NCBI GenBank assembly: GCA_944320985.1
Contig: CALUJN010000009.1
Location: 1-45,721 of the forward strand
Origin: an uncultured Alistipes sp.
GTDB lineage: Bacteria; Bacteroidota; Bacteroidia; Bacteroidales; Rikenellaceae
Direction: 5' to 3'
DNA length: 45,721 nt
The position numbers were made by a program, and so were the translations under genes. Within the stretch, counting starts at the first letter, position 1; each line of letters starts with the position of its first letter. Shown here in pieces: positions 23,336-44,268 of this stretch. The notes beneath the pieces were generated by a model, which saw only the letters and a list, made by a program, of their open reading frames with translations, made no database searches and was not told where the DNA came from.

Positions 23336-23362
23336 CTTTGTACTCTTTTTACAGTTCAACGA

Positions 23363-28101: not shown

Positions 28102-28109
28102 CAAATTTA
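28102..28109 (-). promoter_or_regulatory. -7 box of the SusC operon
   Basis: TAAATTTG on the minus strand fits TAnnTTTG, 71 bases before the SusC start, with a partial -33 (GGTTG) 19 bases upstream. A leader of about 60-70 bases would precede SusC. Confidence 0.55.
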
Positions 28110-28543
28110 GAAGAAGAAAAACAAAAAACAACCCGACAGGACCCTGAAAGTTCCTTTTTGAGAGGTAAAAACAAGTACTTTTTTGCGTAAAAAATAGCAC
28201 TATTGTTCAGCGTGCAACGGGTTTAATATATTGATTTTCTTAACATTGTGATGATTTCTGATTTTTGCGCATCTCCACGCCGTTTCCGCCCCGCCCCCAA
28301 ATCCCCTCCGAAGAGACTCCGCGCCCTCTTTCCCGAGTTGGCCCGTTTGCGCGAATGGTTTTTATTTGCATTGGGTTTCAGTAAGTTAAACATTAGTACA
28401 CAAAAATGGCAGTATTGTGCAAAGATGCTTTGGCTGGAAATCACTACTTTTATCGACAGCCCGTGCCGCCACCGGCGCTTGCGGGCCTGCTGTCGATGCG
28501 GGAGTTTGGAAAGAAAGCCTGAAAAAGTTTAAACCCTAAAGCG
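28110..28543. other. Divergent control region between SusC and nine-gene operon
   Basis: About 430 bases separating the two divergent operons. No gene. The left part is AT-rich; the middle (28270-28350) and right (28455-28510) are GC-rich. I see no exact TAnnTTTG on the plus strand for the rightward operon. A regulator such as the HTCS would be expected to bind here, but I could not identify a repeated site. Confidence 0.4.
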
Positions 28544-29536
28544 ATGGTAAGAAAAATGGTAAAACAGACTCAAAATGCGTGCGGGGGGATTTGCCGGCAG
28601 GGCATCTCCCTTCTCAAGACCTTGTTGTTTCTCTGTCTTGTGGTCACTGCCTGCTCGAAGGAGGAGAGCCGTGCCGCGGTCGTCTACGACATCAAGGCCG
28701 AGACGCTGAAGTGCCGCGATCCGTTCATCTATCTGCACGAACCCTCCGGCATCTACTACCTGCACGTGAACGGCGGCGGGAAAATCAAGTGTTATACGAG
28801 CCCCGACCTGCAAAACTGGCGCTACGAGTGCGACTCCTTTATTCCGGAGCCCGACTTCTGGGGCAAGCAGGATTTCTGGGCCCCCGACATGTACGAATAC
28901 AAAGGCCGCTACTACCTCTTCGTGACCTTCAGTGCCCAGAACGCCAAGCGCGGCGTCTCCGTCCTAGAGTCCAACCGCCCCGAAGGGCCCTTCTTCCCCC
29001 TGACCAACAGCCCCATCACGCCCGAAGACCAGATGTGTCTGGACGGTTCGTTGTATATCGACGAGGAGGGGACGCCGTGGATGATCTACTGCCACGAGTG
29101 GCTGGAGGCTATCGACGGCGAGATTTATGCCGCGCAGATGACAAAGGACTTGTCAGCCTTGAAAGGCGAGCCGAAACTGCTGTTCCGGGCTTCGGAGGCT
29201 CCCTGGGTCGGCGACATCACCTCGGGAAATGTCACCGGCAAGGTGACCGACGCCCCCTTCATCATCCGCCAGGAGAGCGGCCGGCTCATCATGACCTGGT
29301 CGAGCTTCCGGGCCGACAACGGCCGCTATGCCGTCGGGCAGGCCTACTCCGAGGAGGGACTGCTGGGCCCCTGGTATCAGGTTGCCGCGCCATTGATCTC
29401 AGGAGGCGGCCACGCCATGTTCTTCAAGAACAAGGCCGGACGGCTGATGACCTCCTACCATGCACCCAACACCGCGCCCTCCTTCCTGAAAATCCGGAAG
29501 GCCTATATCTACCAGGACAAACTGCTTGTTGAATAA
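28544..29536 (+). CDS. GH43-like lipoprotein, type A
   Basis: A 330-residue lipoprotein (lipobox VTAC, Cys37, after a somewhat long leader; Met5 at 28556 is an alternative start). GH43 propeller with Asp59 (CRDPF), Asp167 (CLDGSLYID) and, at the usual general-acid site, TDAPF (Asp236). It is closest to the type A gene at 8794-9762 (shared YCHEWLE, FRASEAPW/FRASAAPW, SYHAPN). First gene of a rightward nine-gene operon; the next gene starts 21 bases later. Likely removes terminal sugars (arabinose/galactose type); exact specificity unknown. Confidence 0.86.
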   Translation: MVRKMVKQTQNACGGICRQGISLLKTLLFLCLVVTACSKEESRAAVVYDIKAETLKCRDPFIYLHEPSGIYYLHVNGGGKIKCYTSPDLQNWRYECDSFIPEPDFWGKQDFWAPDMYEYKGRYYLFVTFSAQNAKRGVSVLESNRPEGPFFPLTNSPITPEDQMCLDGSLYIDEEGTPWMIYCHEWLEAIDGEIYAAQMTKDLSALKGEPKLLFRASEAPWVGDITSGNVTGKVTDAPFIIRQESGRLIMTWSSFRADNGRYAVGQAYSEEGLLGPWYQVAAPLISGGGHAMFFKNKAGRLMTSYHAPNTAPSFLKIRKAYIYQDKLLVE

Positions 29537-29557
29537 TCCAACACACAACCCCATTTG

Positions 29558-31786
29558 ATGATGAACCCGCTATTCAAGACACTTTTTGCCGCCCTGGCAT
29601 GCGGCTTGGCAGGCAGCCCGGCGGCTGTCCTTGCAACCCCCCGGCAGGTCTATCCCGTCACGACCGAAAAGACCCAACTGGTCTACACGGTGGGCGAGGA
29701 CGGCAAGCTCATTTTCCGCTACTACGGCCCGCGCCTGCACGATGTCGACCAATTTTCGCGCACAAAGGGCTACAACCGCCCCGATTGCCGCCGCGAGGCA
29801 AACTACGAGGCCTACCCGGCCTTCGGCATGGGCTATGTCACCGAGCCGGCCCTCAGCATGGTCAACGCCGACGGCAGCCTCATCACCGAACTCGCCTTCG
29901 AGGGGTGTGAGCAGACGACCGAGGCGGGTGTAGAGCATACGGTCTTCACGCTGCGCGACCGCGTGCAGCCGCTGCGCGTACAACTGCATGTCGAGGCCTA
30001 CCAAGCCGAGGATGTCGTGGCCCAGTGGGCCGTCATCGAGAACCTCGGCCGCGGGGAGGTGACCTTGCAGCGCGTCTATTCGTCGTTTATGAACTTCCGC
30101 GCCAATGCCTACTACCTGACCCACTTCTACGGTACGTGGGCCAGCGAGATGAAGTGCATAGAGGAGCGGCTGGAGCCGGGCTTCAAGGTCATTGAGTCGA
30201 AGAAGGGCATACGCACGACCCAGAGCGAAAACGCCTCCTTCATCCTCTCGCTCGACGCCCCCGCTCAAGAGAACAGTGGCCGCTGCATCGGCGGAGCCCT
30301 AGCCTGGTCGGGCAACTACAAGCTCTCTTTCGAGGTCGACGAGCGCGACCACTTGAGCCTGCTGGCCGGTATCAATCCCTTCCTCTCGGCCTATACGCTC
30401 GGCCGCGGCGAACGCTTCGAGACCCCCAAGATGATTTACACCTACAGCGCAGAAGGCCAGGGTGAGGTTTCGCGCAATTTTCATGACTGGGCCCGCAAAT
30501 ACAGCCTCCATGCGGGCATGAGCGAGCGCCCCGTCCTGCTCAACAGCTGGGAGGGTACCTACTTCGATTTCGACGAGAAGGTGCTCACTGACATGATGGA
30601 CGACGCTGCGGCGCTCGGCATCGAACTCTTTGTCCTCGACGACGGGTGGTTCGGCAACAAATATCCGCGCAACAGCGATAAAATGGGCCTGGGCGACTGG
30701 CAGGTCAACAGCCGGAAGCTGCCCCGCGGCCTGCAATACCTCATCGACCACGCCAAGAGCAAGGGACTGAAGTTCGGCATCTGGATTGAGCCCGAGATGG
30801 TCAACCCCAAGAGCGAGCTGGCGGAGCGCCATCCCGACTGGATCGTACAGAGCCCCGGCCGCGAACAGATAACGATGCGCAACCAGCTGCTGCTCGACCT
30901 CACGAACCCTGCCGTGCGGGAGTTTGTCTGGAAGGTGGTGGACGACCTGCTGACGGCCCACCCCGACATCGCCTACATCAAGTGGGACGCCAACCGCCAT
31001 GTCGAGCAGGTGGGGTCAACGTATTTGCCCGACGACCGTCAGACCCACTTCTGGGTCGACTACACCCGCGGTCTGTACAGCATCTACCAGCGCATCCGCG
31101 AGAAGTATCCCGACGTGATGCTGCAGGCCTGTGCCTCGGGTGGCGGGCGTGTGGACTACGGCTCGCTCCAATATCACGACGAATTCTGGACTTCGGACAA
31201 TACGGATGCCCTGCAGCGCATCTATATGCAGTATGCCACCAATCTAATTTATCCCCCCATGGCTACCGCCTCGCATGTCTCGGCCTCGCCCGGACACCAG
31301 ACCGGCATCATCACGCCGCTGAAGTTCCGCTTCGACGTGGCCATGAGCGGCCGCCTGGGCATGGAACTGCAACCGAAAAACATGTCGGAAACGGAGAAAG
31401 CCTTTGCCCGTGAGGCTATCGTCAACTACAAGACGCATATCCGCGAGCTGGTCACCCGCGGCGACCTCTACCGGCTGATTTCGCCCTACGCCTGCACGAA
31501 CAACCATGCGGCCAACATGCTGGTAAGCAAGGACAAGAGCAAGGCGGTACTCTTTGCCTACTGCACGGGCTTCAACCGCCGCGGCGTGCGCCCCACGATA
31601 CACCTCCACGGGCTGGATGCCGCGAAGCGCTACCGGCTGACCGAGATTAACAAAATCAGCCCGCGCAAGTCGTTCTGGGGCGACGGCGAGGTCTTCGACG
31701 GCGAATACCTGAAAGAGGTAGGCGTCGAGCTGCAGATAGCTCGCCAGTATGAGAGTGCCGTCTTTTTGATTGAAGAGGTAAAATAA
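29558..31786 (+). CDS. GH36 alpha-galactosidase, exported
   Basis: A 742-residue enzyme that releases alpha-linked galactose. It has a cleavable signal (about 1-25), an N-terminal beta-sandwich domain (about 30-300), the TIM barrel (about 310-640) and a small C-terminal beta domain. Catalytic residues of the retaining GH36 mechanism are visible: nucleophile Asp477 in IKWDANRH and acid/base Asp547 in SDNTD, with the CASGGGRVDYG substrate-binding motif between them. The start is the first ATG of an ATGATG pair. 13 bases before the next gene. It implies galactose in alpha linkage in the target glycan. Confidence 0.95.
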   Translation: MMNPLFKTLFAALACGLAGSPAAVLATPRQVYPVTTEKTQLVYTVGEDGKLIFRYYGPRLHDVDQFSRTKGYNRPDCRREANYEAYPAFGMGYVTEPALSMVNADGSLITELAFEGCEQTTEAGVEHTVFTLRDRVQPLRVQLHVEAYQAEDVVAQWAVIENLGRGEVTLQRVYSSFMNFRANAYYLTHFYGTWASEMKCIEERLEPGFKVIESKKGIRTTQSENASFILSLDAPAQENSGRCIGGALAWSGNYKLSFEVDERDHLSLLAGINPFLSAYTLGRGERFETPKMIYTYSAEGQGEVSRNFHDWARKYSLHAGMSERPVLLNSWEGTYFDFDEKVLTDMMDDAAALGIELFVLDDGWFGNKYPRNSDKMGLGDWQVNSRKLPRGLQYLIDHAKSKGLKFGIWIEPEMVNPKSELAERHPDWIVQSPGREQITMRNQLLLDLTNPAVREFVWKVVDDLLTAHPDIAYIKWDANRHVEQVGSTYLPDDRQTHFWVDYTRGLYSIYQRIREKYPDVMLQACASGGGRVDYGSLQYHDEFWTSDNTDALQRIYMQYATNLIYPPMATASHVSASPGHQTGIITPLKFRFDVAMSGRLGMELQPKNMSETEKAFAREAIVNYKTHIRELVTRGDLYRLISPYACTNNHAANMLVSKDKSKAVLFAYCTGFNRRGVRPTIHLHGLDAAKRYRLTEINKISPRKSFWGDGEVFDGEYLKEVGVELQIARQYESAVFLIEEVK

Positions 31787-31799: not shown

Positions 31800-33782
31800 A
31801 TGAAGAAGAGTATAGTAACCCTGTGTCTATTGTTGGCGGGCCTCTGTCCGGTTGCGGCGCAAATATTGGTCGAAACCGAGGCTTTTGCCGACAAGGGCGG
31901 CTGGGTCGCCGACCACCAGGCTTTCGACAAGATTCGTTCGGCCTACCTGATGGCCCATGGCCTGGGACGTCCCGTCGCGGATGCCGCCACCACAGTGCCG
32001 GTAGCGGAGGCGGGCACCTATCATGTCTACGCCAGCACCTACAACTGGACCTCGCCCTGGTATAAGGGCAAGGGCCCGGGAGCTTTCCAGGTGGTGGTCG
32101 ACGGCACGCCCCTCCCGGCGGAGCTTGGCACTACGGGCAGCGGCTGGGAGTGGCAGTATGCCGGGGCGGTGCGCCTGGCCAAGGGCGATGTGCGCCTGGC
32201 CCTGCACGACCTTACGGGTTTCAACGGCCGTTGTGACGCCCTCTATCTCTCGCGGGAGCAGACACCCCCGCCCGCCGATTATGCTCGCATGGAGGAGGTG
32301 CGCCGCCAACTCCTGGGGCAGGGTACGCCCCATGTCGCCCCGAAGGCCGATCTGGTGGTCGTAGGCGGCGGCATCGCAGGGTGTGCGACCGCGCTGACCG
32401 CGGCCCGCTACGGGCTGAAGGTTGTCCTGGTCGACAATCTCCCGTGGCTGGGCGGCAACAACGCGCTGGGGGTCCGCGCCTCGGGGCTAATGTATAAGAA
32501 CCTCTATCCCGAGCTGGGCAACATCACCTGCCAGGTGACAGGCGTACAGCTGGCCGCCAAGAACGACCCCGCTGCCTACCAGGTCGACCCGACGGGCTTC
32601 GGCGACGTGCGGTATGCGCACTACGAGCAGCAGCTGAACTCCCCCGTGCAGGACGCCCGCGGCTCGGACATGCTAAACTCCATCGAGCGGCTGGAGGCCC
32701 GTGGCGAAACCTCGGCCAACCGCCAGGAGCAGAACCTGAAGCAACAGGAGTACCTGCGCCGCAATGCTGCCCTGAAACGCGAGGCTCTCTTGCGCGAGGC
32801 CGGGGTTGAGATTTACCACGACATCCAGATCTTTGAGGTTGTGAAGGAAGGGACCCTTATCGCTTCGGTGAAGGGTAAGAGCCTGAAAAGCGGCGAGGAG
32901 TACATCTTCGCGGGAGGGCTCTTTGCCGACTGCACGGGCGACGGCACGGTGGGCTACCTGGCCGGAGCCGACTGGCGTATGGGCCGCGAGAGCCGCGACG
33001 TGGCGCAGGAGCCCTCGGCTCCCGAGGTCGCCGACCAGAAGAAGATGGGCTCGACGATGCAGTGGTATGCCTTCCCGCGTGCCGATGCGGGTTCATTTCC
33101 CCGTCCCGAGGAGCTGCCGTGGGCTATACGTGTCGACAAGGAGTACCACATCAACCGCAGCAGCTGGGCCTGGTGGTGGGAGACCGGCCTCGAGATAGAC
33201 AACGCTACCGAGGCGGAACTTGTGCGCGACAACTTCCTGCGGGCCGTCTTCGGCAACTGGGCCTACCTCAAGCACCACAATCCCCAATACGCCGGCTACC
33301 GCCTCGACTACCTGCAACATATCGCCATGAAGCGCGAGTCGCGCCGCCTGCTAGGCGACGTGATTCTCGACGAGACCGACATTCTGGAGCGCGTGAAGTT
33401 CCCCGACGCCAGTTTCACGACGACCTGGACGATGGATCTCCACTACGCCAAGCCAGAGAACGCCAAGCGCTATCCGGGCTGGGAGTGGGTCACCTACTGC
33501 ACCCATTACAAGCCCTTGGCCAAGGTCGACCGCTACGACGTGCCCTACCGGGTGCTCTATTCGCGCAATGTCGACAACCTCTTCATCGGCGGCCGCTGCA
33601 TGAGCGTGACACACCAGGCCTTGGGCACAGTGCGCGTGCAGATGACGCTCGGCATGGCCGGTGAGGTCACCGGCATGGCGGCCAAAATCTGCAAGGAACA
33701 GGGTGTCCTGCCGCGGGGAGTCTATGAAAAGCACCTGGACGACCTGAAGAAACTGATGAAAAAGGGTGCGCCCCTCAAATAA
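31800..33782 (+). CDS. Exported FAD-dependent oxidoreductase with N-terminal beta domain (paralogue 1)
   Basis: A 660-residue protein with a signal peptide (1-20). Residues about 22-155 form a beta-rich, carbohydrate-module-like domain (golvesin/CBM-like: YHVYASTYNWTSPWY, FQVVVDGTPL). From about 183 comes an FAD-binding Rossmann fold of the FAD_oxidored type (VVVGGGIAGCATALTAARYG, then LVDN) and the C-terminal FAD motif NLFIGGRCMSVTHQALGTVR. A central stretch (about 247-325) has no match to the paralogue at 39129. Export of a flavin enzyme is unusual. It probably oxidises a sugar or sugar derivative in the periplasm, but the substrate, product and electron acceptor are unknown. It lies between GH36 and an unrecognised glycosidase-like gene, 9 bases from the latter. 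Confidence 0.85.
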   Translation: MKKSIVTLCLLLAGLCPVAAQILVETEAFADKGGWVADHQAFDKIRSAYLMAHGLGRPVADAATTVPVAEAGTYHVYASTYNWTSPWYKGKGPGAFQVVVDGTPLPAELGTTGSGWEWQYAGAVRLAKGDVRLALHDLTGFNGRCDALYLSREQTPPPADYARMEEVRRQLLGQGTPHVAPKADLVVVGGGIAGCATALTAARYGLKVVLVDNLPWLGGNNALGVRASGLMYKNLYPELGNITCQVTGVQLAAKNDPAAYQVDPTGFGDVRYAHYEQQLNSPVQDARGSDMLNSIERLEARGETSANRQEQNLKQQEYLRRNAALKREALLREAGVEIYHDIQIFEVVKEGTLIASVKGKSLKSGEEYIFAGGLFADCTGDGTVGYLAGADWRMGRESRDVAQEPSAPEVADQKKMGSTMQWYAFPRADAGSFPRPEELPWAIRVDKEYHINRSSWAWWWETGLEIDNATEAELVRDNFLRAVFGNWAYLKHHNPQYAGYRLDYLQHIAMKRESRRLLGDVILDETDILERVKFPDASFTTTWTMDLHYAKPENAKRYPGWEWVTYCTHYKPLAKVDRYDVPYRVLYSRNVDNLFIGGRCMSVTHQALGTVRVQMTLGMAGEVTGMAAKICKEQGVLPRGVYEKHLDDLKKLMKKGAPLK

Positions 33783-33791
33783 CGAAAAAAC

Positions 33792-35894
33792 ATGAAAAAG
33801 AGACTTTTCATACTTCCTCTGTTGCTCCTGGCGGGAGGCCTTGGAAGTGATGCCGCCGCACAACGGCTCGAAAAACTGGAGATATTCCAGGACAACTATC
33901 CGCGGGCAGGTTACTTCCGTATCGCCGAGTTCAGCATCCGCTGGCATTATGCCGGCATGGAGGAGAAATATGACGAATGGAGCCGCCGCATGTCCGACCT
34001 TTCGGGCATCATGGGTAAAACCGAATACGAGGAGTTGATAGTCAACAACCCCCACCGGCAGATTTACAACTGGTTCCGCCGCTTCAAGGAGGACTATCCC
34101 GAGAAATTCGTGATGGTCCACCTCAACGGCCGCGGGCGCATCCCCGATTATCGCCTGGAAAAGTTTTCTCCCGGCCACTGGCTCTACTTCGAGGGAGCCA
34201 ATGTCCTCAACGCGCTGCCCGACGCCTCGTCGGAAGCCTATAAGCCCGAAGTGTGGCTGGAGGTCGACGACCCGTCGCACTTCCGCATGGACAACGGCGC
34301 GAAATTCAACACCCCCGACGACATCACCCTGGTGCGCCGCAGGGAGGACGGCACCTTCGACTGGGAGCATGCCGAATATGTCCGGCTGCTCAACATCCGC
34401 GGTAACCGCATCCGCGTGCGGCGGGCGATGTTCAACTCCACGGCCCGGGCATTTGAGCCCGGCAAGACCTACGCCGCGCCCCACGTAATGGGCGGCCCCT
34501 GGGAGGCGACGACCAACATGGTGTGGTACTACAACCTCTCCACGGTCTGTCCGCGTGATGCCGAGGGCAGGAGCTGTGCCGACGTGCTTCTGGAGGAGCT
34601 CTCCGGCAATTTCGCCCCGGGTGGCCGCTGGGAGACCTTCGACGGCGTGCAGTTCGACGTGATGATGAGCATCCCCACGACAGGCTACCACGAGCGCCGC
34701 AAGGCCTTGGGCCAGCGGGCCGATGTCGACATGGACGGACGGCAGGACGACGGCGTGGTGGACGGCCGCCAGACCTACGGACCGGGGTGCTTAGATTTTC
34801 TCACCCGCCTGCGAGCTGCCGTGGGTCCCGACCGCATCTTGGCGGCCGACGGCCGTGAGCACGGCTGCCAGAAAGCGGGCAACGGCGTATTGAGCGGCGT
34901 GGAGATGGAGGGCATTCCGGAGCAGCGGCCCTATGGATACATCACCTGGTCGACGGTATACAACATGCTCACCCATTGGAAGTCGCTGACCGCCACGCCG
35001 AAATTCAACTATGGGGCTTTCCGCTACAACACCCCCGAGAAACTGGCACCCTCGGATATGTTGCAATACTACCGCCTGGGGTTTGCCTTGAGTACCTTCA
35101 CCGACTCTTTCCTGCTGTGCAACAGCTGGTTCTCGTTGCGCGAGATACCCGATTTGCGCGAGGTCTTCAATATCAGGAAAGACGAGCCGGTGCTCGGCTG
35201 GCTGGGGCGGCCGCTCGGCCCGCCGCGCCATTTGGCCGCCGAAGCCCCCGATGTGTTGCAAGGGGCGGGCAATCCCATATCGCCCCGCCTGCTTGAGGAG
35301 ACTCCCGACGGCATACACTTGAGCGCAACGCCGGAGAACACCTACGCCACGGCCCGCATCACGGAGTCCGGGACGCTGGAGATACGGCCGACCGGGACAC
35401 GCGACCTTTGCGGATTTGTCCTCTGCAAGGTCCCCTACATCAACAACGAGGTCTATGTCGAGGTGACGATGCGCTCGACGGGCGAGGGCAGCAAGGAGCC
35501 GCAGGGATACAACCGCGCGCTGGTTGTCGCGGCCAACAACCAGCGCAAGCGCTTCATGGAGCAGCGTTCGGTGGTTTCGGACAAGTGGGCCACCCACCGC
35601 TTCTATTTCGCCAACACGTTTGACTGCATGAGCCAGGAAAAACTCATCTACAACCCGAAGGGCGAGCAGCGCTTCAACCTGCGGTTCATGATGCAGGATG
35701 CCGACTGCCCGATTGAAATCTCCCGCATCACCGTGCACAGCGCTTCAGAGATTGTCACGCGGGCGTTCGAACACGGCCTTGTTGTGGCCAATCTATCCAA
35801 CGAGACCTATGATTGTCAGGCCAACGGAAAACGCCTGCGCATCCCCGCCAAAGACGCCGCTTTTATACGGACCCAAAACAACGTCTCCAAATGA
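33792..35894 (+). CDS. Unrecognised exported glycosidase-like protein
   Basis: A 700-residue exported protein (signal about 1-23) whose family I do not recognise. The first ~500 residues look like a TIM-barrel glycosidase: FRIAEFSIRWHYAGM, FVMVHLNGRG, FDGVQFDVMM (Asp284, Asp289), DRILAADGRE, GVEMEGIP (Glu371, Glu373) and a late SLREIPDL region. The Asp and Glu motifs at strand ends are natural candidates for catalytic acids, as in uncharacterised GHL-type families. The last ~200 residues are beta-rich (LRFMMQDADCPIEISRITVHS), possibly a carbohydrate-binding or sandwich domain, then a short FEHGLVVANLSNETYDC segment. Translation is coupled to the next gene (ATGA overlap). Function inferred only from fold-like features and context. 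Confidence 0.7.
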   Translation: MKKRLFILPLLLLAGGLGSDAAAQRLEKLEIFQDNYPRAGYFRIAEFSIRWHYAGMEEKYDEWSRRMSDLSGIMGKTEYEELIVNNPHRQIYNWFRRFKEDYPEKFVMVHLNGRGRIPDYRLEKFSPGHWLYFEGANVLNALPDASSEAYKPEVWLEVDDPSHFRMDNGAKFNTPDDITLVRRREDGTFDWEHAEYVRLLNIRGNRIRVRRAMFNSTARAFEPGKTYAAPHVMGGPWEATTNMVWYYNLSTVCPRDAEGRSCADVLLEELSGNFAPGGRWETFDGVQFDVMMSIPTTGYHERRKALGQRADVDMDGRQDDGVVDGRQTYGPGCLDFLTRLRAAVGPDRILAADGREHGCQKAGNGVLSGVEMEGIPEQRPYGYITWSTVYNMLTHWKSLTATPKFNYGAFRYNTPEKLAPSDMLQYYRLGFALSTFTDSFLLCNSWFSLREIPDLREVFNIRKDEPVLGWLGRPLGPPRHLAAEAPDVLQGAGNPISPRLLEETPDGIHLSATPENTYATARITESGTLEIRPTGTRDLCGFVLCKVPYINNEVYVEVTMRSTGEGSKEPQGYNRALVVAANNQRKRFMEQRSVVSDKWATHRFYFANTFDCMSQEKLIYNPKGEQRFNLRFMMQDADCPIEISRITVHSASEIVTRAFEHGLVVANLSNETYDCQANGKRLRIPAKDAAFIRTQNNVSK

Positions 35895-37474
35895 AAATCA
35901 CGCGAAAACCCAAAATGCTCATCGCCGGCGGTCTGCTGGCGGTCGGATGCAGTGACCCCGCCGCGGAATTGGCCGGTACGCGCCCCAACATCCTCATAGC
36001 CATCGCCGACGACCAGTCCTACCCCTTCGCCGGGGCTTACGGCTGCAACTGGATTCACACCCCCGCCTTCGACCGCGTGGCCGCCGAGGGCATTCTCTTC
36101 ACCAACTGCTACACGCCCAACGCCAAGTCGGCCCCTTCGCGTGCGTGCCTGCTCACGGGCCGCTATTCGTGGCAACTGGAGGAGGCCGGAAACCACATCG
36201 GCTACTGGCCCGAGAACAGCTATCCGACCTTCTGCGAAACCCTGTCGCAGAACGGCTATTACACTGCTTTTACCGGAAAAGGCTGGGCGCCCGGAAATCC
36301 TCGCACTATCCATGGTAAACCGCGCCGTTTGACGGGAATCCCCTATCAGCAACAGCGGCTCGTTCCGCCGACTTCCTCAATCAGCAAAATCGATTACGCC
36401 GCCAATTTCGAGCAATTTCTGCGACAAAAGCCCGAAGGTTCTCCCTGGGTCTTTTGGTTTGGCTGTCACGAACCCCACCGGGCCTATGAATATCAATCCG
36501 GCGTAAATAAAGGCGGGAAATCGCTTGCGGATATCGACCGCATACCGCCTTTCTGGCCCGACAACGATACCGTACGCCACGATCTGTTGGACCACGCCTA
36601 TGAAATCGAATATTTCGACTCCCACCTGGGACGCATTCTCGACATGCTCGAAGCGAGCGGCGAACTGGACAATACGATCGTTGTGGTAACGGCCGACAAC
36701 GGAATGCCGTTCCCGCGTTGCAAAGGACTGGAATACGAATATTCGAACCACCTGCCGCTGGCCGTCATGTGGCCCGCGGGTATCCGTCATGCCGGGCGTG
36801 AGGAGTCTGCCTATGTCAGCCTGATAGACTGGGCCCCGACCTTCCTGCGTCTGGCGGGTGTCGATGCTGTAGCCAACGGCATGGACCCCGCAGGGTGTGA
36901 GCTCACCGACCTGCTGGCCGACGCCCCGTGTCACGACCGCAGCAGCATCCTCCTGGGGCAGGAGCGCCACGACTACGGGCGGCCACGCAACCAGGGCTAT
37001 CCGATTCGCTCGATTATCGAGGAGGGATACCTCTACATCCACAATTTCAAGCCCGAGTTGTGGCCCGCAGGCAACCCCGAGACGGGCTACCTCAACACCG
37101 ACGGCTCGCCGACCAAGACGACCATCCTGGAGGGCCGACGCCGTGGCGAGGAGAGCCCCTGGTGGCAGCTCTCCTTCGGGAAACACCCCGCCGAGGAGCT
37201 CTATTGCCTGACGACCGACCGTGCATGCATGCACAATCTCGCGGGTGAGGCAGCCCATGCCGAGCGCATGGCGCGGATGCGCGAAAAACTTTTCGCGCAA
37301 CTGCGCGCAACGGGCGACCCGCGTGTGTGCGGCGATGGCGACATCTTCGACACCTATCCTTTCTTCCAGCCGACGAGTCTCGACTTCTACGAGCGTTACA
37401 TGCGTGGCGAGGCAACCTCCGAACAGACCGACTGGGTCAATCCCTCCGACTACGAATCCGCACCGCTGGACTAA
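35891..37474 (+). CDS. S1-family sulfatase lipoprotein (serine type), mosaic composition
   Basis: A 527-residue sulfatase with lipobox AVGC (Cys20). Formylglycine site Ser80 in SAPSR; metal and active-site motifs IAIADDQSYPF (about 36-46), TGKGWAPGN and VVTADNGMPFPRCKG resemble sulfamidase-type (N- or O-sulfo) enzymes. The start codon overlaps the stop of the previous gene by four bases. Base composition and codon choice change inside the gene: from about 36260 to 36760 Glu is almost always GAA and Lys AAA, while on both sides GAG and AAG prevail. Protein and reading frame are unbroken. 13 bases before the next gene. Confidence 0.93.
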   Translation: MKITRKPKMLIAGGLLAVGCSDPAAELAGTRPNILIAIADDQSYPFAGAYGCNWIHTPAFDRVAAEGILFTNCYTPNAKSAPSRACLLTGRYSWQLEEAGNHIGYWPENSYPTFCETLSQNGYYTAFTGKGWAPGNPRTIHGKPRRLTGIPYQQQRLVPPTSSISKIDYAANFEQFLRQKPEGSPWVFWFGCHEPHRAYEYQSGVNKGGKSLADIDRIPPFWPDNDTVRHDLLDHAYEIEYFDSHLGRILDMLEASGELDNTIVVVTADNGMPFPRCKGLEYEYSNHLPLAVMWPAGIRHAGREESAYVSLIDWAPTFLRLAGVDAVANGMDPAGCELTDLLADAPCHDRSSILLGQERHDYGRPRNQGYPIRSIIEEGYLYIHNFKPELWPAGNPETGYLNTDGSPTKTTILEGRRRGEESPWWQLSFGKHPAEELYCLTTDRACMHNLAGEAAHAERMARMREKLFAQLRATGDPRVCGDGDIFDTYPFFQPTSLDFYERYMRGEATSEQTDWVNPSDYESAPLD

Positions 37475-37487
37475 ACATATACCGCCA

Positions 37488-39116
37488 ATGAAAACACTGC
37501 TTTATGTTTGGATATGCCTGGCCCTGGCCGGATGCGGCACACGGAGGGGCGAGGTGCGTGAACTTGAGACCCCGCGGCTGGGCTCCTGGGGCGACCAGGG
37601 CGACGGCTCCTATCGCAACCCGGTGCTGAACAGCAACTTCCCCGACAGCGATGTCGAAGCCTTCGACGGCAAATGGTACATGATCTCCTCGGGCGGTACC
37701 CTGACACCGGGGATGACCATCCTCGAATCGGAGGATTTGGTCAACTGGGAGATTACGGGCGGCCTCGTCGACTCCATCGGCTGGAAGACCCGCACCGGAG
37801 TGTGGGCCGGCGACTTCGTGCGCCGTGACGACCATTGGCTCTGCTACTTCATCGACTTCGAGACGGGGCTCTTCGTCTGCAGGGCCGACGACATCCACGG
37901 GCCGTGGAGTGCGCCGCAGCTGATGCTCGCCCGCAAGGGAATGACCGACCCTGCCGTCTTCTGGGACGAGGAGGAGCGGCAGGCCTACCTGATATGCAAC
38001 TACCAGATTGACGAGCTGGAGAAGGAGCGGGTCTACCACCAGCGCCTTTTCCGCTTGAGCTGGGACGGCAGCCGCCTGCTCGACGAGGGGCAAGATGTCT
38101 ATGTGGGTGTCGGGGCCGAGGCGGCCAAGATTTACAAGATTGATGGCCTCTTCTACCTCTTCATCTCCGAGTGGACGATGGACGGACGCGGCAACAAGGT
38201 CGACCGCAGGCAAATAGTCCTGCGCAGCCCCTCCATCAGCGGCCCGTATGAGAAACGGGTGCTGCTCGAAAAGGACGCCGTGACGCAGCGCAGTTGCAGC
38301 CAGGGGGCCCTGGTGCAGGTGCCCGACGGCTCGTGGTGGTATCTCCACCAGCTGGTACAGTCGAAAGACTCCTATGAGGGGCGTCCGCAGTTCCTGATTC
38401 CCGTGCGCTGGGAGGAGGGCTGGCCCCTGCTGGGTGAGGATGCCGACGGCAACGGCATCGGCAATACGGTCTGGCAGGCGCGCAAACCCGTGCAGGGCAA
38501 GCCCGTGCGCGGCGTGCAGACCGACGACGACTTCAACCTGCCGCAGATGCGTCCCCAGTGGCGGTGGAGCGGCAACCCGATGCCGGACAAATGGTCGCTC
38601 ACCGAGCGTCCGGGCTGCCTGCGGCTTCGTGCCACAGCCCCGCTGCAGCCGAAGCGCCCCTACCACACGCTCCCCAACAGGCTTATGTTGCGGAAGATGG
38701 GCCGCGGTGCCGATACCGTGACCGTCAAGCTCGCTGTCGGGGGGTTGGCCGAGGGCCAGCAGGCCGGGGTGGCGCTGACGGGCCTGAACCATGCCGCCCT
38801 CGGCGTGGAGTGCCGCGGGGGCGCGCACCATGTCGTCTGCACCACCAGTCGGGATACGACACTTTTGCCGGCCGTCGACGGGCCGTGGGTATGGTTGAGA
38901 CTCTGTCTGAAGCAACGCACCGCGACCGCCTCGTACAGTCCCGACGGGCGGACGTTCCATGCCGCGGGCGGGCCTTTCACGCTGACAACGGCGGGTTTCA
39001 ACGGCATCTTCATCTCGCTCTTCAGCATGCATCCCGAGGGACTCGGATATGCCGATTTCGACTACTTCACCTACGACTACGACGGCCCGAAACACCAGGC
39101 CCTCGTGGTCGAATAA
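37488..39116 (+). CDS. GH43-type glycosidase with C-terminal lectin-like domain, lipoprotein
   Basis: A 542-residue lipoprotein (lipobox LAGC, Cys16). The N-terminal ~300 residues form a canonical GH43 propeller: base Asp53 in FPDSDV, the MTDPAVFW Asp, and a Glu in VGVGAEAAKIYK as general acid. This differs from the small GH43 genes elsewhere in the window, which lack that Glu. The C-terminal ~200 residues (from about 330) resemble the concanavalin-like C2 domain of two-domain GH43 enzymes (xylosidase/arabinofuranosidase type), ending GYADFDYFTYDYD. ATG at 37488 begins the signal; longer frames upstream overlap the sulfatase. Releases xylose or arabinofuranose-type residues by family; substrate here unknown. 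Confidence 0.88.
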   Translation: MKTLLYVWICLALAGCGTRRGEVRELETPRLGSWGDQGDGSYRNPVLNSNFPDSDVEAFDGKWYMISSGGTLTPGMTILESEDLVNWEITGGLVDSIGWKTRTGVWAGDFVRRDDHWLCYFIDFETGLFVCRADDIHGPWSAPQLMLARKGMTDPAVFWDEEERQAYLICNYQIDELEKERVYHQRLFRLSWDGSRLLDEGQDVYVGVGAEAAKIYKIDGLFYLFISEWTMDGRGNKVDRRQIVLRSPSISGPYEKRVLLEKDAVTQRSCSQGALVQVPDGSWWYLHQLVQSKDSYEGRPQFLIPVRWEEGWPLLGEDADGNGIGNTVWQARKPVQGKPVRGVQTDDDFNLPQMRPQWRWSGNPMPDKWSLTERPGCLRLRATAPLQPKRPYHTLPNRLMLRKMGRGADTVTVKLAVGGLAEGQQAGVALTGLNHAALGVECRGGAHHVVCTTSRDTTLLPAVDGPWVWLRLCLKQRTATASYSPDGRTFHAAGGPFTLTTAGFNGIFISLFSMHPEGLGYADFDYFTYDYDGPKHQALVVE

Positions 39117-39128
39117 AAAGATGAGAGC

Positions 39129-41099
39129 ATGAAAAAACTACTGATATTGTGCGCATTGATTGCCGTCGGGCGGGCTTCGGCACAGCTGCTGGTCGAGACC
39201 GAGGCTTTTACCGACAAGGGCGGCTGGGTCGCCGACCACCAGGCTTTCGAGCAGATACGCTCGGCCTACCTGATGGCCCACGGCCTGGGGCGTCCCGTCG
39301 CGGATGCCGAGACCGTGGTGCAGGTGCCCGAGGCGGGTGACTACCATCTCTACGTGAGCACCTACAACTGGACCTCGCCCTGGTATGAGGGCAAGGGCCC
39401 GGGGGCTTTCCAGGTGGTGGTCGACGGCACGCCCCTCCCGGCAGAACTGGGCACTACGGGCAGCGGCTGGGAGTGGCAGTATGCCGGGGCGGTGCGCCTG
39501 GCCAAGGGCGATGTGCGCCTGGCCCTGCACGACCTTACGGGTTTCAACGGCCGTTGCGACGCTCTCTATCTCTCGCGGGAGCAGACACCCCCGCCCGCCG
39601 ACTATACCGCCTTTGCCGCCGAGCGACTGCGACTGCTGGGCCACGAAGCCCCGCAGCGTGTCGCCGGGGCTGACTTGGTGGTCGTGGGCGGTGGCATCGC
39701 AGGTTGTGCTACAGCCTTGACCGCGGCCCGCTACGGCCTGAAGGTCGTTCTGGTCGACAATCTCCCGTGGCTGGGCGGCAACCATGCGCTGGGTGTGCGT
39801 GCCAACGGCCTAATGTTTGAAAACCTCTACCCCGAGCTGGGCAACATCACCTGCCAGATACTCAACGCAGACATCACCGAGAAGAACAACCCCGAGGCCT
39901 ACTTCGTCCGCGAGAACCGGACAGGCTACATCAAGCGCTACCTGCCGATACCCGCCCTACGGGACTACAAGGGCCCGCCCTCGGAGCTGATGACGCAGGC
40001 GCAGGAAAACCTTTCTGTATCAGAGCGGCAGAACATCACCAAGTCGGAGCTGAACCAAAACAACAACGAGTACCGCCGCAAGCAGCAGGCCGAGATCCGC
40101 AAATCGCTACTCGAAAAGGCGGGGGTCGCCATCTACCAGCACGTGCAGGTTTGGAAGGTCGCCATGGAGGGCGGACGCATCGTGTCGGTCGCGGGTCACC
40201 ATCTCCAGAACGGCATGGAGTACTGCTTCGAGGGGGCGATGTTTGTCGACTGCACGGGTGACGGCGTGCTCGGCTACCTGGCCGGTGCGGAGTACCATAT
40301 CGGCCGCGAAAGCAAGGCCTATGCCCAGGAGCCCTCGGCCCCGGAGGTCGCCGACCGGAAGAAGATGGGCATGAGCATGCACTGGTATGCCTATCCGCGT
40401 GAAGATTCCGGCACCTTCCCCACCGTCGCCGAACTACCGTGGGCCATGCCCTGCACAGCGGAGTCGTGCTTAAGGAGCTCGCAGTGGAGCTGGGAGTGGG
40501 AGACGGGACTGGAGATTGACAACGCCACGCAGATTGAACTGGCCCGCGACAACTATTTCCGCGCCGTCTTCGGCAACTGGGCCTACCTGAAGAACCACGA
40601 CGAAAAGTACAGCGACTACCGCCTCGACTACCTCCAGTATATCGGCATGAAGCGCGAGTCGCGGCGCATCCTGGGCGATCTGGTGCTCAACGAGAACGAC
40701 ATCGTGAACCGCGTGGCCTATCCCGACGCCAGCTTCACGACGACCTGGACCCTCGACCTCCACTACGCCACCCCCAAGCAGCGGAAGTATTTTCCCGGCT
40801 GGGAGTGGATGACCTACTGCACCAACGGTCGCGAGGTGTGGATCAAGCCCTACCACGTCCCCTACCGTTGTCTTTATGCCAAAGATGTCGAAAACCTCTT
40901 CATCGGCGGCCGCTGCATGAGCGTGACACACCAGGCTTTGGGCACGGTGCGCGTGCAGGCCACGCTGGGCATGGCGGGTGAGGTCATCGGCATGGCCGCG
41001 AGTCTCTGCAAGCAGTACAGCACCACGCCGCGCGGGATCTACCGCGACCATCTAGACGCACTGAAGAGACTGATGCGCAAGGGTGCCCCGCTACGATAA
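39129..41099 (+). CDS. Exported FAD-dependent oxidoreductase with N-terminal beta domain (paralogue 2)
   Basis: A 656-residue paralogue of the protein at 31800-33782 with the same signal, CBM-like beta domain, Rossmann motif (VVVGGGIAGCATALTAARYG, then LVDN) and C-terminal GGRCMSVTHQALGTVR motif. The first ~155 residues are almost identical between the two, down to long nucleotide runs (for example 39480-39560 against 32155-32230). By contrast residues about 247-325 (YFVRENRTGYIKRYLPIPAL onwards) share nothing obvious. That points to duplication with divergence of a substrate-contacting insert, or N-terminal gene conversion. It is placed between a GH43 and a sulfatase. Reaction unknown; export and neighbours suggest oxidation of a glycan-derived sugar. 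Confidence 0.85.
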   Translation: MKKLLILCALIAVGRASAQLLVETEAFTDKGGWVADHQAFEQIRSAYLMAHGLGRPVADAETVVQVPEAGDYHLYVSTYNWTSPWYEGKGPGAFQVVVDGTPLPAELGTTGSGWEWQYAGAVRLAKGDVRLALHDLTGFNGRCDALYLSREQTPPPADYTAFAAERLRLLGHEAPQRVAGADLVVVGGGIAGCATALTAARYGLKVVLVDNLPWLGGNHALGVRANGLMFENLYPELGNITCQILNADITEKNNPEAYFVRENRTGYIKRYLPIPALRDYKGPPSELMTQAQENLSVSERQNITKSELNQNNNEYRRKQQAEIRKSLLEKAGVAIYQHVQVWKVAMEGGRIVSVAGHHLQNGMEYCFEGAMFVDCTGDGVLGYLAGAEYHIGRESKAYAQEPSAPEVADRKKMGMSMHWYAYPREDSGTFPTVAELPWAMPCTAESCLRSSQWSWEWETGLEIDNATQIELARDNYFRAVFGNWAYLKNHDEKYSDYRLDYLQYIGMKRESRRILGDLVLNENDIVNRVAYPDASFTTTWTLDLHYATPKQRKYFPGWEWMTYCTNGREVWIKPYHVPYRCLYAKDVENLFIGGRCMSVTHQALGTVRVQATLGMAGEVIGMAASLCKQYSTTPRGIYRDHLDALKRLMRKGAPLR

Positions 41100-41127: not shown

Positions 41128-42522
41128 ATGAAACAGAACAACACAATCCTCAAGCTCTCGGCGCTCCCGGTGGCGGTGGCTCCGACAGTGACCGCAATGG
41201 CCCAGACACAAAAGGCGGCCGATGACCGCCCCAACATCGTGGTCATCGTGGCTGACGACCTCCTCACCTCGGAGTTGAGTTGCTACGGCGGTCGCAACCT
41301 CATAACCCCCAACATCGACCGCCTCGCGGCCGAAGGCGTAAAGTTCACCAACAACTACGCCTCGATGTCGATGAGCGTGCCCATCCGTGCCTCGATGTAC
41401 ACGGGACTCTACCCGATACGCCACGGTTCGTACCAGAACCACAAGCCGACCTTCGACGGCACGAAGACCGTCAACGAATACATGGCGGAGGAAGGTTACC
41501 GCGTCGGCCGAACCGGCAAGGGCCATCCGAATACCCCCTCGGTCTACAAGTTCGAGGAGATTCCCGGCTTCACGCGCAACTGTGTGGCGGCCAAAGCCCC
41601 CTACCATGTGAACGGCATCCGCGAGTTCATCAACCGCAACGACCAGCCCTTCCTGCTCTATGTGTGCAGCATCCATCCCCATGTGCCCTGGACGTGGGGC
41701 GACCCCGGGGAGTTTGACGCCAACAGCCTGATTCTGCCCGACAACTGTGTGGACAACCCCCGGACACGTGCCATATTCACCCACTACCTCGCAGAGGTGC
41801 GGGCTCTGGACAACGAGGTGGGCTCCGTCCTAGAGGTGCTCTCCGAGAGCGGCAAGCTCGACAACACCATCGTGATGTTCCTCGGCGAGCAGGGGCCGCA
41901 GATTCCGGGCGGCAAGTGGACCTGCTGGTATCCCGGGGTCCACAGCGCTCTGGTGGCCCGCTATCCTGCCAAAATCGAGGCGGGACGTATATCAAACGCC
42001 ATCGTGCAGTATGAGGATCTGCTCCCGACCTTCATCGACATCGCCGGCGGAGAAGCCCGCAAGGAGCTCGACGGCATCAGCTTCAAAGACGCGCTCTTCG
42101 GCGACGCGGAGCGTGCCCGCGACTACGCCTACGGTCTACACAACAACATCCCCGAGGGCAATCCCTATCCGATTCGCTACATCCGCGACGAGCGCTATGC
42201 GCTGATCTGGAACCTGACACCCGATGTTCCCTACCACGAGAAACACTACATGGGCAACCCTCCGGCACCCATGTGGGCTTCGTGGGAAGACAAGGCCCTG
42301 CAAGATCCCCAGGCGAAGATGCTTGTCGACCGCTTCGTTTTCCGCCCCGAGTTTGAGTTCTACGACCTACAGAAAGACCCGTGGGAGCTGCGCAACCTGG
42401 CCGGAAAGGCGAAATACAAGACGAAGATCGAGGAGATGAAACGCCATCTGGAGGCCTGGATGAAACAGCAGGGCGACAAGGGCGTTGGGGTGGATGTCCC
42501 CTTTGAGCAGACCCGCTATTGA
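41128..42522 (+). CDS. S1-family sulfatase (serine type, SVPIR motif)
   Basis: A 464-residue exported sulfatase with Ser83 in SVPIR at the formylglycine site; Ile replaces the usual Ser, Thr or Ala before the Arg. Other active-site features are present: IVADDLLTSE (about 41-50), TGKGH, SIHPHVPW (about 190) and LGEQGPQIPGGKWTCW, where GEQG takes the place of the common SDNG. The first ATG (41128) gives a signal-like segment ending AMAQ. A long frame upstream overlaps the oxidoreductase gene and is not the start. 28 bases after the previous gene. Target sulfate unknown. Confidence 0.92.
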   Translation: MKQNNTILKLSALPVAVAPTVTAMAQTQKAADDRPNIVVIVADDLLTSELSCYGGRNLITPNIDRLAAEGVKFTNNYASMSMSVPIRASMYTGLYPIRHGSYQNHKPTFDGTKTVNEYMAEEGYRVGRTGKGHPNTPSVYKFEEIPGFTRNCVAAKAPYHVNGIREFINRNDQPFLLYVCSIHPHVPWTWGDPGEFDANSLILPDNCVDNPRTRAIFTHYLAEVRALDNEVGSVLEVLSESGKLDNTIVMFLGEQGPQIPGGKWTCWYPGVHSALVARYPAKIEAGRISNAIVQYEDLLPTFIDIAGGEARKELDGISFKDALFGDAERARDYAYGLHNNIPEGNPYPIRYIRDERYALIWNLTPDVPYHEKHYMGNPPAPMWASWEDKALQDPQAKMLVDRFVFRPEFEFYDLQKDPWELRNLAGKAKYKTKIEEMKRHLEAWMKQQGDKGVGVDVPFEQTRY

Positions 42523-42555: not shown

Positions 42556-44268
42556 ATGACAAAAAAAGTGATTCCCCTGAACCTGTTGCTACTGGGCACG
42601 ACCTCCGCCCTTGCGGCACCGGAGCGGCCAAACATCATCGTCATCCTCTCCGACGATATGGGCTATTCCGACATCGGCTGTTATGGCGGCATGATCAAGA
42701 CCCCGGTGCTGGACAGCCTGGCCGCCACGGGCTTGCAGTACATGCAATTCTATAACACAGCCCGCAGTTGTCCTTCGCGGGCGAGCCTGCTGACCGGCCT
42801 GCACCCCCACCAGACCGGCATCGGCCACATGAACTCCAATCGGGGTGCAGACGGGTACCGGGGTGGCCTGAACAACCACAACGTCACCATAGGCGAAGTT
42901 ATGCAGCAAGCCGGTTACGAGACCTACGCCGTCGGCAAGTGGCATGTTGCCCAGCAGCAAGAGGCCAACAGCCCGAAGCACAACTGGCCGCTGCAGCGGG
43001 GGTTCGACCATTATTACGGAACGATACAGGGCGGCGGCAGTTTCTACGATCCCAGTTCGCTTTGCCGCGGCAACACCTTCATCACGCCGGAGAACGACCC
43101 GGAGTACCGTCCGGAGAGTTTCTATTACACAAATGCCCTCGGCGACAATGCCTGCATGTTCCTGCAGGAGCACAAGGAGTCGCAAAACAAGAAACCCTTC
43201 TTCATGTACCTGGCCTTCACGGCCGCCCATTGGCCCATGCAAGTGCCGGAGGCCGATGTCGAGCCCTACAAGGGCATGTTCGACGAAGGTTGGGACGTCC
43301 TGCGGCTGCGGAAGTATGAGCGGATGCGCCGCGAGGGGCTGATTGACCCGGACTGGAAACTCAGTGAGGATGCCACTGTCGGGGCTTGGAAAGATGAGCC
43401 CCACAAAAAGTTCGAGACCCGCTGCATGGAGGTCTATGCCGGTATGGTCAGCAATCTGGACCGCAACATCGGCAAGGTGGTAGAGATGCTGAAAAAGACG
43501 GGGCAGTATGAGAATACGGTCATCTTCTACCTCCAGGACAATGGCGGATGCGCCGAGCTGATGGAGCGCCAGCGCCCCGCCTTCCGAGTGCAGGTTCCCC
43601 CGGGGAAAAACATGAATCCGATGGGGAAGGACGAGTTGCAGACGCAGCTGATACCCTTCAAGACCCGCGACGGCCGGCCGGTGCTGCGTGGCCGGGCGAT
43701 GCCGGGCGGCCCCGACACCTATGTGGCCTATGGCCGCGCCTGGGCATGGGTCAGCAACACCCCCTTCCGGGAGTACAAGCACTGGGTGCACGAGGGCGGC
43801 ATCTCCACGCCGCTGATTGTCCACTGGCCCGCGGGCATCGCCCCCTCGGGGGACAACAAACGCCAGACGCCGGGCCAGCTGATGGATATCATGGCGACCT
43901 GCGTCGAGCTCTCCGGCGGATACTATCCCCTGGAGTTCAAGGGCCGCACCATTTATCCCTGCGAGGGGGTAAGCCTAGTCTCCTCGTTTGCCGCCGACCC
44001 GCCGAAGAACAACCGCTGGCTCTTCTGGGAGCATGAAGGCAACCGCGCCGTGCGGAACGGGGAATGGAAGCTGGTCTACAAGGCCGGAACGGAAGTGCGC
44101 GACATCCCCAACTCCTCCTGGGAACTCTATAATATGAAGCTGGACCGCACGGAAACAAACAATGTGGCCGCAGAAAATCCCAAAATCGTCAAGCGGCTGG
44201 CCGCCAAATGGAACGAGTTTGCCGAACGGTGCCATGTGAAGCCGTGGCCCCGGCCGCTCAAGCCTTGA
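42556..44268 (+). CDS. S1-family sulfatase (serine type)
   Basis: A 570-residue exported sulfatase (signal about 1-21, ending ALAA). Formylglycine site Ser71 in SCPSR (71-75); a Cys follows at the X position, so it could be misread as a cysteine-type enzyme. Metal-site and substrate motifs: VILSDDMGYSD (about 29-39), AVGKWHVA (about 124), HWPMQVPE (about 219), YLQDNGG (about 324). Resembles large arylsulfatase-like members. Last gene of the nine-gene operon, followed by an intrinsic terminator. Confidence 0.94.
   Translation: MTKKVIPLNLLLLGTTSALAAPERPNIIVILSDDMGYSDIGCYGGMIKTPVLDSLAATGLQYMQFYNTARSCPSRASLLTGLHPHQTGIGHMNSNRGADGYRGGLNNHNVTIGEVMQQAGYETYAVGKWHVAQQQEANSPKHNWPLQRGFDHYYGTIQGGGSFYDPSSLCRGNTFITPENDPEYRPESFYYTNALGDNACMFLQEHKESQNKKPFFMYLAFTAAHWPMQVPEADVEPYKGMFDEGWDVLRLRKYERMRREGLIDPDWKLSEDATVGAWKDEPHKKFETRCMEVYAGMVSNLDRNIGKVVEMLKKTGQYENTVIFYLQDNGGCAELMERQRPAFRVQVPPGKNMNPMGKDELQTQLIPFKTRDGRPVLRGRAMPGGPDTYVAYGRAWAWVSNTPFREYKHWVHEGGISTPLIVHWPAGIAPSGDNKRQTPGQLMDIMATCVELSGGYYPLEFKGRTIYPCEGVSLVSSFAADPPKNNRWLFWEHEGNRAVRNGEWKLVYKAGTEVRDIPNSSWELYNMKLDRTETNNVAAENPKIVKRLAAKWNEFAERCHVKPWPRPLKP

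Follow-up and report, generated by a model that had tools for sequence, protein, structure and literature searches.

Glycan breakdown by Bacteroidota is usually framed as hydrolysis, lysis, and desulfation. Oxidative routes exist beside these: gut bacteria reportedly degrade glycans by stepwise oxidation, elimination, hydration, and reduction (Nature, 2024), with nicotinamide-dependent oxidoreductases and separate eliminase and hydratase modules. The flavoenzyme glycoside 3-dehydrogenase GlycDH of Rhizobium/Agrobacterium is a member of the GMC family. GlycDH and the 3-keto-glycoside eliminases provide a chemical precedent for flavin-dependent attack on glycosides (PMC10628242). Extracytosolic flavin-based electron transfer has been treated separately. 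In two papers on flavinylated systems (PMC8238504 and PMC11334425), "sugar" does not occur, "glyc" occurs once in PMC11334425 (as glycerol) and not in PMC8238504, and "PF12831" does not occur in PMC8238504. Searches of one open-access collection of papers found neither a characterized sugar enzyme of the family PF12831 nor a work linking this family, or flavinylation, to polysaccharide utilization. Here, we describe two PF12831 flavoproteins, FAD1 and FAD2, encoded in a polysaccharide utilization locus of an uncultured Alistipes sp. The stretch analyzed, called the window, is the whole of contig 9 (CALUJN010000009.1; 45,721 nucleotides) of a 2.66-Mb assembly of 90 contigs (GCA_944320985.1). 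On balance, we favor the view that FAD1 and FAD2 are exported flavin adenine dinucleotide (FAD)-dependent carbohydrate dehydrogenases of a sulfated-glycan locus, whose relatives in other Bacteroidota would pass electrons to a putative flavin carrier, FMNP, encoded next to them.

That the window encodes a pair of paralogous flavin enzymes, as claimed in the first-pass annotation of this DNA, is clearly the case. FAD1 (660 amino acids [aa]) and FAD2 (656 aa) are both full-length genes; their products match PF12831 with 211 and 207 bits, respectively (cut-off, 27), over positions 1-409 and 1-412 of the 416-position model, and are 65% identical to each other. At an E-value of 0.001, PF12831 and FAD-Rossmann families were matched, and no GMC (AA3) family. 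The glycine-rich FAD motif and many charged residues are invariant across 30 aligned family members, and both proteins can be expected to bind FAD. Both have signal-peptide-like N termini according to a crude rule of our own (not SignalP) and are probably exported. Furthermore, either protein carries about 160 residues ahead of its FAD stretch. This N-domain had no Pfam match in FAD1; in a scan of 16 N-domains of the family (FAD1 and FAD2 included), Golvesin_C was matched by 10, CBM_35 by 3, and CBM_6 by 1, the best E-values lying between 6.7e-6 and 0.012, and a profile of the domain gave no match in the PDB up to E 5. Since these matches are weak, the "CBM-like" label given earlier (Golvesin/CBM35/CBM6) is plausible but not proven. 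The export signals postulated with it are seen with our rule. The assertion that flavoenzymes with a sugar-binding-type domain are seldom directed to the periplasm has to be amended: among the 268 genomes of the window's taxonomic family, hand-picked best matches revealed the same architecture of N-domain and FAD domain in at least 32 besides the window's own, and most of these proteins have a signal according to our rule. Scans of viral contigs gave no relatives.

The two N-domains (31860-32279 and 39183-39602) have a DNA identity of 91.5% (84% at third positions), far above that of the catalytic parts of the same two genes (67.1%, with 57% at third positions) and that of the N-domains of orthologues between species (61-64%, with 34-36% at third positions). 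In the tree, FAD1 and FAD2 group with their counterparts in a second Alistipes locus, FAD1' and FAD2', respectively, and therefore, the duplication predates the split of the two species. Hence, the N-domains were homogenized between FAD1 and FAD2 after this split, by gene conversion confined to the N-domain. The catalytic parts were already distinct before the split and have remained both intact and distinct. We read the homogenization as selection for a single docking specificity shared by two different catalytic parts, but it could also have arisen by neutral gene conversion.

The link to an electron carrier comes from relatives outside the window's family. A profile of the FAD family was positive in 12 of 395 genomes of the phylum (E 1e-60), and six of the FAD genes found are adjoined by a gene for a protein of about 360 to 390 residues, here named FMNP, which begins with a signal-like stretch and had no Pfam match in any of the six scanned. 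The profile built from these six seeds (A6) detected FMNP in 7 of the 395 genomes, all 7 of them among the 12 FAD-positive ones; 6 of the 7 are the seeds, and the seventh, G421, has the gene order sulfatase-FAD-ApbE-FMNP. A second copy in G429 is embedded in SusC-SusD-FAD-FMNP-GH43-like-sulfatase-sulfatase-SusC, with the GH43-like (GH, glycoside hydrolase) label assigned by us from the sequence. We also examined 199 genomes of a single family, of which 21 encode FMNP (24 genes in all), and 3 of these 21 genomes were seeds; the 21 other FMNP genes lie in 20 regions, and 20 of them directly adjoin an FAD-type gene. Overall, 27 of 29 FMNP genes (21 of 23 without the seeds) directly adjoin a PF12831 FAD gene on the same strand, and one more is separated from it by ApbE alone (FMNP loci L094, L097, L098, L100-L103, L108, and L110-L129). 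Even the three lowest-scoring paired FAD genes (L108, L113, and L124; 74-91 bits against the references) match PF12831: L113 and L124 score 270 and 271 bits along the full length of the model, and the 1056-aa L108 protein is matched in three parts, with 50 to 94 bits.

The motif D-x-x-[STA]-G-A-T, commonly as D-A-x-S-G-A-T or near, is found in 28 of the 29 FMNP sequences, compared to a mean of 0.09 in shuffled sequences. It fits the [S/T]GA[S/T] flavinylation motif (PMC11334425). VCxxxxC is present in 22 of the 29. One form of the motif, DALSGAT, also occurs in a protein of the window's own genome, which we take to be RnfD. On its motif, FMNP would carry flavin mononucleotide (FMN) attached by ApbE; ApbE is part of the FAD/FMNP cluster in two regions of the first sample (L094 and L103) and in none of the 20 regions of the further sample. 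The paired FAD enzymes are of two types, with an N-domain as in the window and without, and the latter often open with an RR signal of the twin-arginine translocation (Tat) type (MKRRNFL, MKRREFF). Among FAD proteins with an N-domain, the signal classes were 37 signal peptidase I type (SPI), 17 signal peptidase II type (SPII), 2 Tat, and 5 none (61 in all), and among the 26 without, 11 Tat, 11 SPI, and 4 none; the crude rule makes visible errors (e.g., L079, L095, L105, and L119), and only the trend is used.

The surroundings of FMNP are those of glycan degradation in many cases. A sulfatase is present in 12 of the 20 FMNP regions, while random placement would give about 3.6 (P 1.3e-5), an expectation that is not corrected for the gathering of sulfatases in glycan loci and that takes, for G785, G662, and G830, counts of candidates exceeding the matches scored. 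SusC is found in 8 and a CstA-like gene in 9 of the 20. Pfam labels for 89 previously unlabeled neighbors gave GH29, GH31, GH42-like, GH43, GH97, GLAA-B-type (GH110-like), FG-GAP, and cytochrome c, with 2 to 5 members each; a single GH16 protein was noted separately. In sum, the FAD-FMNP linkage points to a periplasmic electron chain from sugar via FAD to FMN in glycan loci. The oxidative role proposed for the pair in the first-pass annotation thereby gains ground for the PF12831 family at large, as extracytoplasmic redox chemistry, with the FMNP linkage, ApbE in two regions, and Tat-like signals, by our crude rule, in 11 of the 26 relatives that have no N-domain.

Some further observations were made in these regions. 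The CstA-like membrane protein (about 470-480 aa) is found repeatedly around the FAD/FMNP genes, in many cases as their neighbor (L097, L098, L104, L111, L114, L115, L116, L118, L124, L126, L127, and L128). One FMNP/FAD region encodes a ThuA-GSDH-PKD-cytochrome c protein, a domain set of the sugar oxidation type (L120:4053-7454). A lambda-carrageenase beside FMNP, listed for 2 of the 89 neighbors in the tally, was discarded, as the presumed members (L116 and L118) are FG-GAP/UnbV proteins.

In the window's own taxonomic family, we inspected 40 regions from 34 genomes, hand-picked as best matches, plus the third copy of the window's own genome (L089), 41 regions in all. Several are shorter than 19 kb owing to contig ends, and two in which the open reading frame (ORF) caller missed the FAD gene (L066 and L080) were kept. 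Genes in the regions were labeled by phmmer against a selection of proteins that included those of the window, with 40 bits or more required for counting, and not by Pfam. A tally of FAD relatives in 156 of the 268 genomes at E 0.001 is not used as a family count, because this threshold also catches other FAD-Rossmann proteins. SusC is present in 15 and a GH36-like gene in 7 of the 41 regions. Examples are SusC-SusD-SusE-FAD-GH36-like-GH2-DUF4886 (L072), SusC-SusD-822-aa protein-FAD (L047, L057, L063, and L065), and GH78-GH106-FAD (L055). Some FAD relatives have no signal peptide. One of them (L085, 8227-15533) is followed by genes for an SSF symporter, a class II aldolase, a PfkB protein, a Zn-alcohol dehydrogenase, and a second PfkB protein; this set looks like monosaccharide catabolism and is the best hint of sugar handling by the FAD family, possibly as a cytosolic sugar oxidation operon. 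Two side observations concern the same genes. A 962-aa frame (L082:9717-12602) begins like a LacI-type regulator, by our own reading, and continues as an FAD relative; it may be a fusion or an assembly error. A family of about 820-880 aa precedes the FAD gene in L047, L057, L063, L064, L065, L067, L092, L111, L116, and L118, and thus spans loci of gut and other Bacteroidota; the member scanned (L047) had no Pfam match.

The features of the window are listed in Table 1. FAD1 and FAD2 stand in a divergent polysaccharide utilization locus, whose minus strand encodes the regulator (hybrid two-component system [HTCS]), GH43s, GH78, sulfatases, the 668-aa protein, SusD, and SusC and whose plus strand encodes GH43, GH36, FAD1, UNK, sulfatase, GH43, FAD2, sulfatase, and sulfatase, in this order. 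With likely start codons taken (ATG at 37488 for the second GH43 and at 41128 and 42556 for the last two sulfatases), successive plus-strand genes are spaced by 18, 13, 9, -4, 13, 12, 28, and 33 bases. The tight packing of the flavoenzyme genes among GH36, GH43, and sulfatases that had been noted is therefore real, with two amendments: the end of UNK and the sulfatase ATG at 35891 overlap by 4 bases, and two of the three plus-strand sulfatases (41128 and 42556) lie past 41099, the end of the span then considered. The attribution to a sulfated-glycan operon also stands, since SusC/SusD, glycoside hydrolases, sulfatases, and a regulator are all present, and the Ser-type motif is found in 5 of 5 sulfatases tested. 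The 668-aa protein is perhaps a surface glycan-binding protein. The second Alistipes locus retains the gene set of the window, although some genes have changed places, with 75% identity for FAD1 and 73% for UNK, and therefore, the arrangement is more than chance (G104 and L011, whose contigs agree in length [112,953 bases] and gene order, are counted as one).

Table 1. Features of the polysaccharide utilization locus in the window
Feature	Position	Strand	Remarks
FAD1, PF12831 flavoprotein, signal-peptide-like start	31800..33782	+	N-domain ~21-161, FAD domain ~184-646
FAD2, paralogue of FAD1, same architecture	39129..41099	+	Pfam, alignment
UNK, 700 aa	33792..35894	+	Without Pfam, NCBIfam, or PDB match; relatives in sulfatase loci
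GH36 alpha-galactosidase-type protein	29555..31786	+	Pfam
GH43	28544..29536	+	Pfam
Sulfatase PF00884, Ser-type motif SAPSR	35891..37474	+	ATG overlaps end of UNK
GH43 with GH43_C2 domain	37488..39116	+	Pfam
Sulfatase PF00884, Ser-type motif SVPIR	41128..42522	+	
Sulfatase PF00884, Ser-type motif SCPSR	42556..44268	+	Closest PDB sequences: arylsulfatases 7all, 1hdh
SusC-type TonB-dependent transporter	24836..28174	-	Same divergent locus
SusD-type protein	23363..24820	-	
668-aa protein after SusD	21353..23359	-	Weak Fib_succ_major match, E 0.026
Sulfatase PF00884, motif SSPSR	19847..21346	-	
Sulfatase PF00884, motif SSPAR	15841..17322	-	
GH78-type alpha-L-rhamnosidase	12650..15508	-	
Two GH43 genes	8794-9762 and 9770-10732	-	
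HTCS of the locus	4628..8716	-	

UNK, the gene between FAD1 and the first plus-strand sulfatase, had been described as TIM-barrel-like and proposed for a co-occurrence search with the FAD family. Neither idea is borne out. UNK had no match in Pfam or NCBIfam and none in the PDB by sequence, its profile gave two chance-level PDB matches only (E 0.65 and 0.71), and its structure model, built from 2 sequences, is unusable (predicted local distance difference test [pLDDT] score, 34.3). The family is rare: it is present in 4 of the 268 genomes of the window's taxonomic family and in 1 of the 395 phylum genomes, the window's own, and the sole relative found among named genomes is in Alistipes sp. 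RGIG8662 from water-deer colon. Sulfatases are found at all five UNK loci (window, G104, L086, L087 [a 4.5-kb contig], and L088 [own genome]), compared to FAD genes at two, window and G104, which are orthologous; moreover, UNK is absent from the 41 other FAD regions of the taxonomic family. The idea of a dedicated FAD partner was therefore dropped, and UNK is a protein of sulfated-glycan loci.

Some fragmentary frames are seen on the minus strand. Within 10740-12400, a C-terminal sulfatase fragment of 225 aa adjoins frames that resemble an IS3-type transposase. Small HTCS-like (149 aa) and GH43-like (154 aa) frames between the two sulfatases (about 17322-19847) are possibly remnants of rearrangement. 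In the second Alistipes locus (L090), a 465-aa sulfatase sits between GH43 and the 668-aa-type protein.

In our model, FAD1 and FAD2 would be part of the periplasmic enzyme set of a sulfated-glycan utilization locus, whose glycan perhaps contains galactose, arabinose, and rhamnose, as GH36, GH43, and GH78 are present. The N-domain would dock the enzyme on an oligosaccharide, and the PF12831 domain would oxidize a hydroxyl group of one sugar unit. Since the docking domain is common and the catalytic parts differ, the probable targets of FAD1 and FAD2 are two separate sugar units, or two separate positions, within one glycan. In the relatives, where a putatively exported protein with a flavinylation motif does stand beside the oxidoreductase, electrons would most likely flow to the adjacent FMNP (D-x-x-S-G-A-T, with FMN inserted via ApbE) and from there into the respiratory chain. 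The acceptor in the window's organism is the most conjectural step of the model. More tentatively still, it is imaginable that a dedicated periplasmic flavin chain with FMNP, its dehydrogenase bearing a docking domain in one branch, serves loci for both sulfated and other glycans in gaining energy and in opening bonds that resist hydrolases, and that the Alistipes pair represents a carrier-free branch of two sister enzymes that oxidizes, and perhaps re-reduces, different positions of one glycan.

Several observations weigh against this model, above all as applied to the window itself. FMNP was absent from the window's own genome in a search at E 1e-12, and both FMNP and ApbE are absent from the 41 FAD regions of the taxonomic family. 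In the window, neither a flavinylation-motif protein nor ApbE lies beside the oxidoreductases; the two ApbE and two FMN_bind matches of the genome are all on other contigs. Therefore, the electron path of the relatives cannot simply be transferred to the window. Among the relatives, too, ApbE is absent from the 20 regions of the further FMNP sample, about half of the FMNP-paired FAD enzymes have no N-domain, and one FMNP gene (L129) has no PF12831 neighbor, with only short PF12831 matches elsewhere in its genome. Of the 41 regions inspected in the window's family, a single one holds a sulfatase, and several FAD relatives look like lone genes, one of them adjoined by secA (L052). Structural evidence was of little help: the FAD family profile (A3) matched essentially only the FAD-binding part of PDB proteins (best 60 of 154 matches), and the model of FAD1, with a pLDDT of 44.6 from a 4-sequence alignment, is unusable.

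The window pair also differs from other members of its family. After the FAD motif, it has ALGVR in place of the S[SA]E[VIT]R of the 26 other A3 members; between positions 245 and 330, it carries about 60 residues more than 21 of these 26 and 30 more than the remaining 5; and it forms a clade with a long stem in the tree. The altered loop, the extra residues, and the long stem together suggest that the reaction of the window clade may differ from that of other family members. This clade is nested in one of 62 rows, nearly all with an N-domain, which comprises an FMNP-paired group (14 of 14 rows paired), a group of 46 rows, none paired (the window clade, 41 others of its taxonomic family, and L092, which comes from a different one), and L093 and L096, which stand singly and are unpaired; the deeper branching of the tree is moderately supported, and long branches (L108, L096, L093, and others) are flagged.

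The carrier-free situation in the gut family would be accommodated by a redox-neutral cleavage, in which bound FAD is a transient hydride store: the sugar is oxidized to the keto form, elimination removes the glycosidic bond or a substituent, and the hydride is returned by the same or the sister enzyme. Such a reaction needs no carrier and would explain both the lack of FMNP in the window's genome and in the FAD regions of its family and the paired genes (at least two FAD genes per region in the window, G104, L111, L112, L114, L126, and L127), and a precedent for glycoside cleavage through oxidation and elimination is well established with the 3-keto-glycosides (PMC10628242). Nevertheless, we regard it as unlikely, because relatives elsewhere have an apparently dedicated carrier, a Pfam scan of the 22 ORFs of the window named no eliminase or hydratase (nor a Gfo/Idh/MocA protein), and the pairs are equally explicable as enzymes for two substrates. 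It might also be possible that the electrons run the other way, with a keto, unsaturated, or anhydro sugar derived from the glycan as the electron sink, fed by the respiratory chain (via FMNP in the relatives). Flavinylated domains that feed extracytosolic fumarate-reductase-like enzymes have been described (PMC8238504), the best PDB profile matches of the family include flavocytochrome c fumarate reductase, over the FAD-binding stretch only, and the gut host presumably lives anaerobically. The direction of electron flow cannot be read from the sequence; however, family members beside sugar-catabolic genes fit a dehydrogenase better, and a reductase appears quite improbable to us.

We consider it least probable, with only a slim chance, that FAD1 and FAD2 act on a part of the ligand other than sugar (phenolic, methyl, or acyl) or are redox-inactive binders kept for the docking domain. 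The altered loop of the window pair would be consistent with this, as would the failure to find a characterized PF12831 sugar enzyme in our searches of open-access papers and, by profile, of the PDB, but all 30 aligned members retain the FAD motif and many charged residues unchanged, and FAD1 and FAD2 have kept their catalytic parts intact and distinct since before the species split. Carbohydrate dehydrogenases working on two positions of one glycan thus remain our preferred interpretation of FAD1 and FAD2.

How does this arrangement compare with known systems? With the gut-bacterial stepwise system, the proposed one has in common the use of redox chemistry for glycan cleavage, but exported flavoproteins would take the place of the nicotinamide-dependent oxidoreductases. 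FAD1 and FAD2 match nearly the whole PF12831 model; the window members are distinguished by their junction with a Golvesin/CBM-like domain and by their position in a sulfatase-bearing SusC/D locus. In the GlycDH pathway, flavin-dependent oxidation of a glycoside precedes bond cleavage, which is the logic proposed here (PMC10628242); the window enzymes, however, are of PF12831, and no eliminase or Gfo partners are named among the 22 window ORFs scanned. FMNP resembles ApbE-flavinylated systems in its signal-like start, its [S/T]GA[S/T]-type motif, and the presence of ApbE in two regions (PMC8238504 and PMC11334425), but the 6 FMNP proteins scanned match no Pfam family, and many FMNP genes are located within glycan loci or close to them.

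Among marine bacteria, the carrageenan system of Zobellia and relatives is similar in its sulfatase-rich SusC/D loci (PMC5698469). A figure legend on carrageenan loci in that paper names AA3 and "fumarate reductase/succinate dehydrogenase" genes, some of which may belong to the family described here. Oxidation there is different and is carried out by an NAD(P)-dependent dehydrogenase acting on 3,6-anhydro-D-galactose (PMC5698469). In Maribacter forsetii, an FAD-dependent oxidoreductase beside a SusC/D pair was expressed in 2 of 3 glucose samples (PMC11345257); it is mentioned there in passing and without a function, and the likeness rests on annotation, not on family assignment.

In sum, we propose a variant that would join two known kinds of chemistry, extracytosolic flavin electron transfer and oxidative glycan cleavage; gene linkage is its firmest ground, and its biochemistry is putative. 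If this is true, an oxidative, respiration-linked arm would be added to the polysaccharide utilization loci of gut and marine Bacteroidota, and both the large PF12831 family and the so far unnamed FMNP family would acquire a function.

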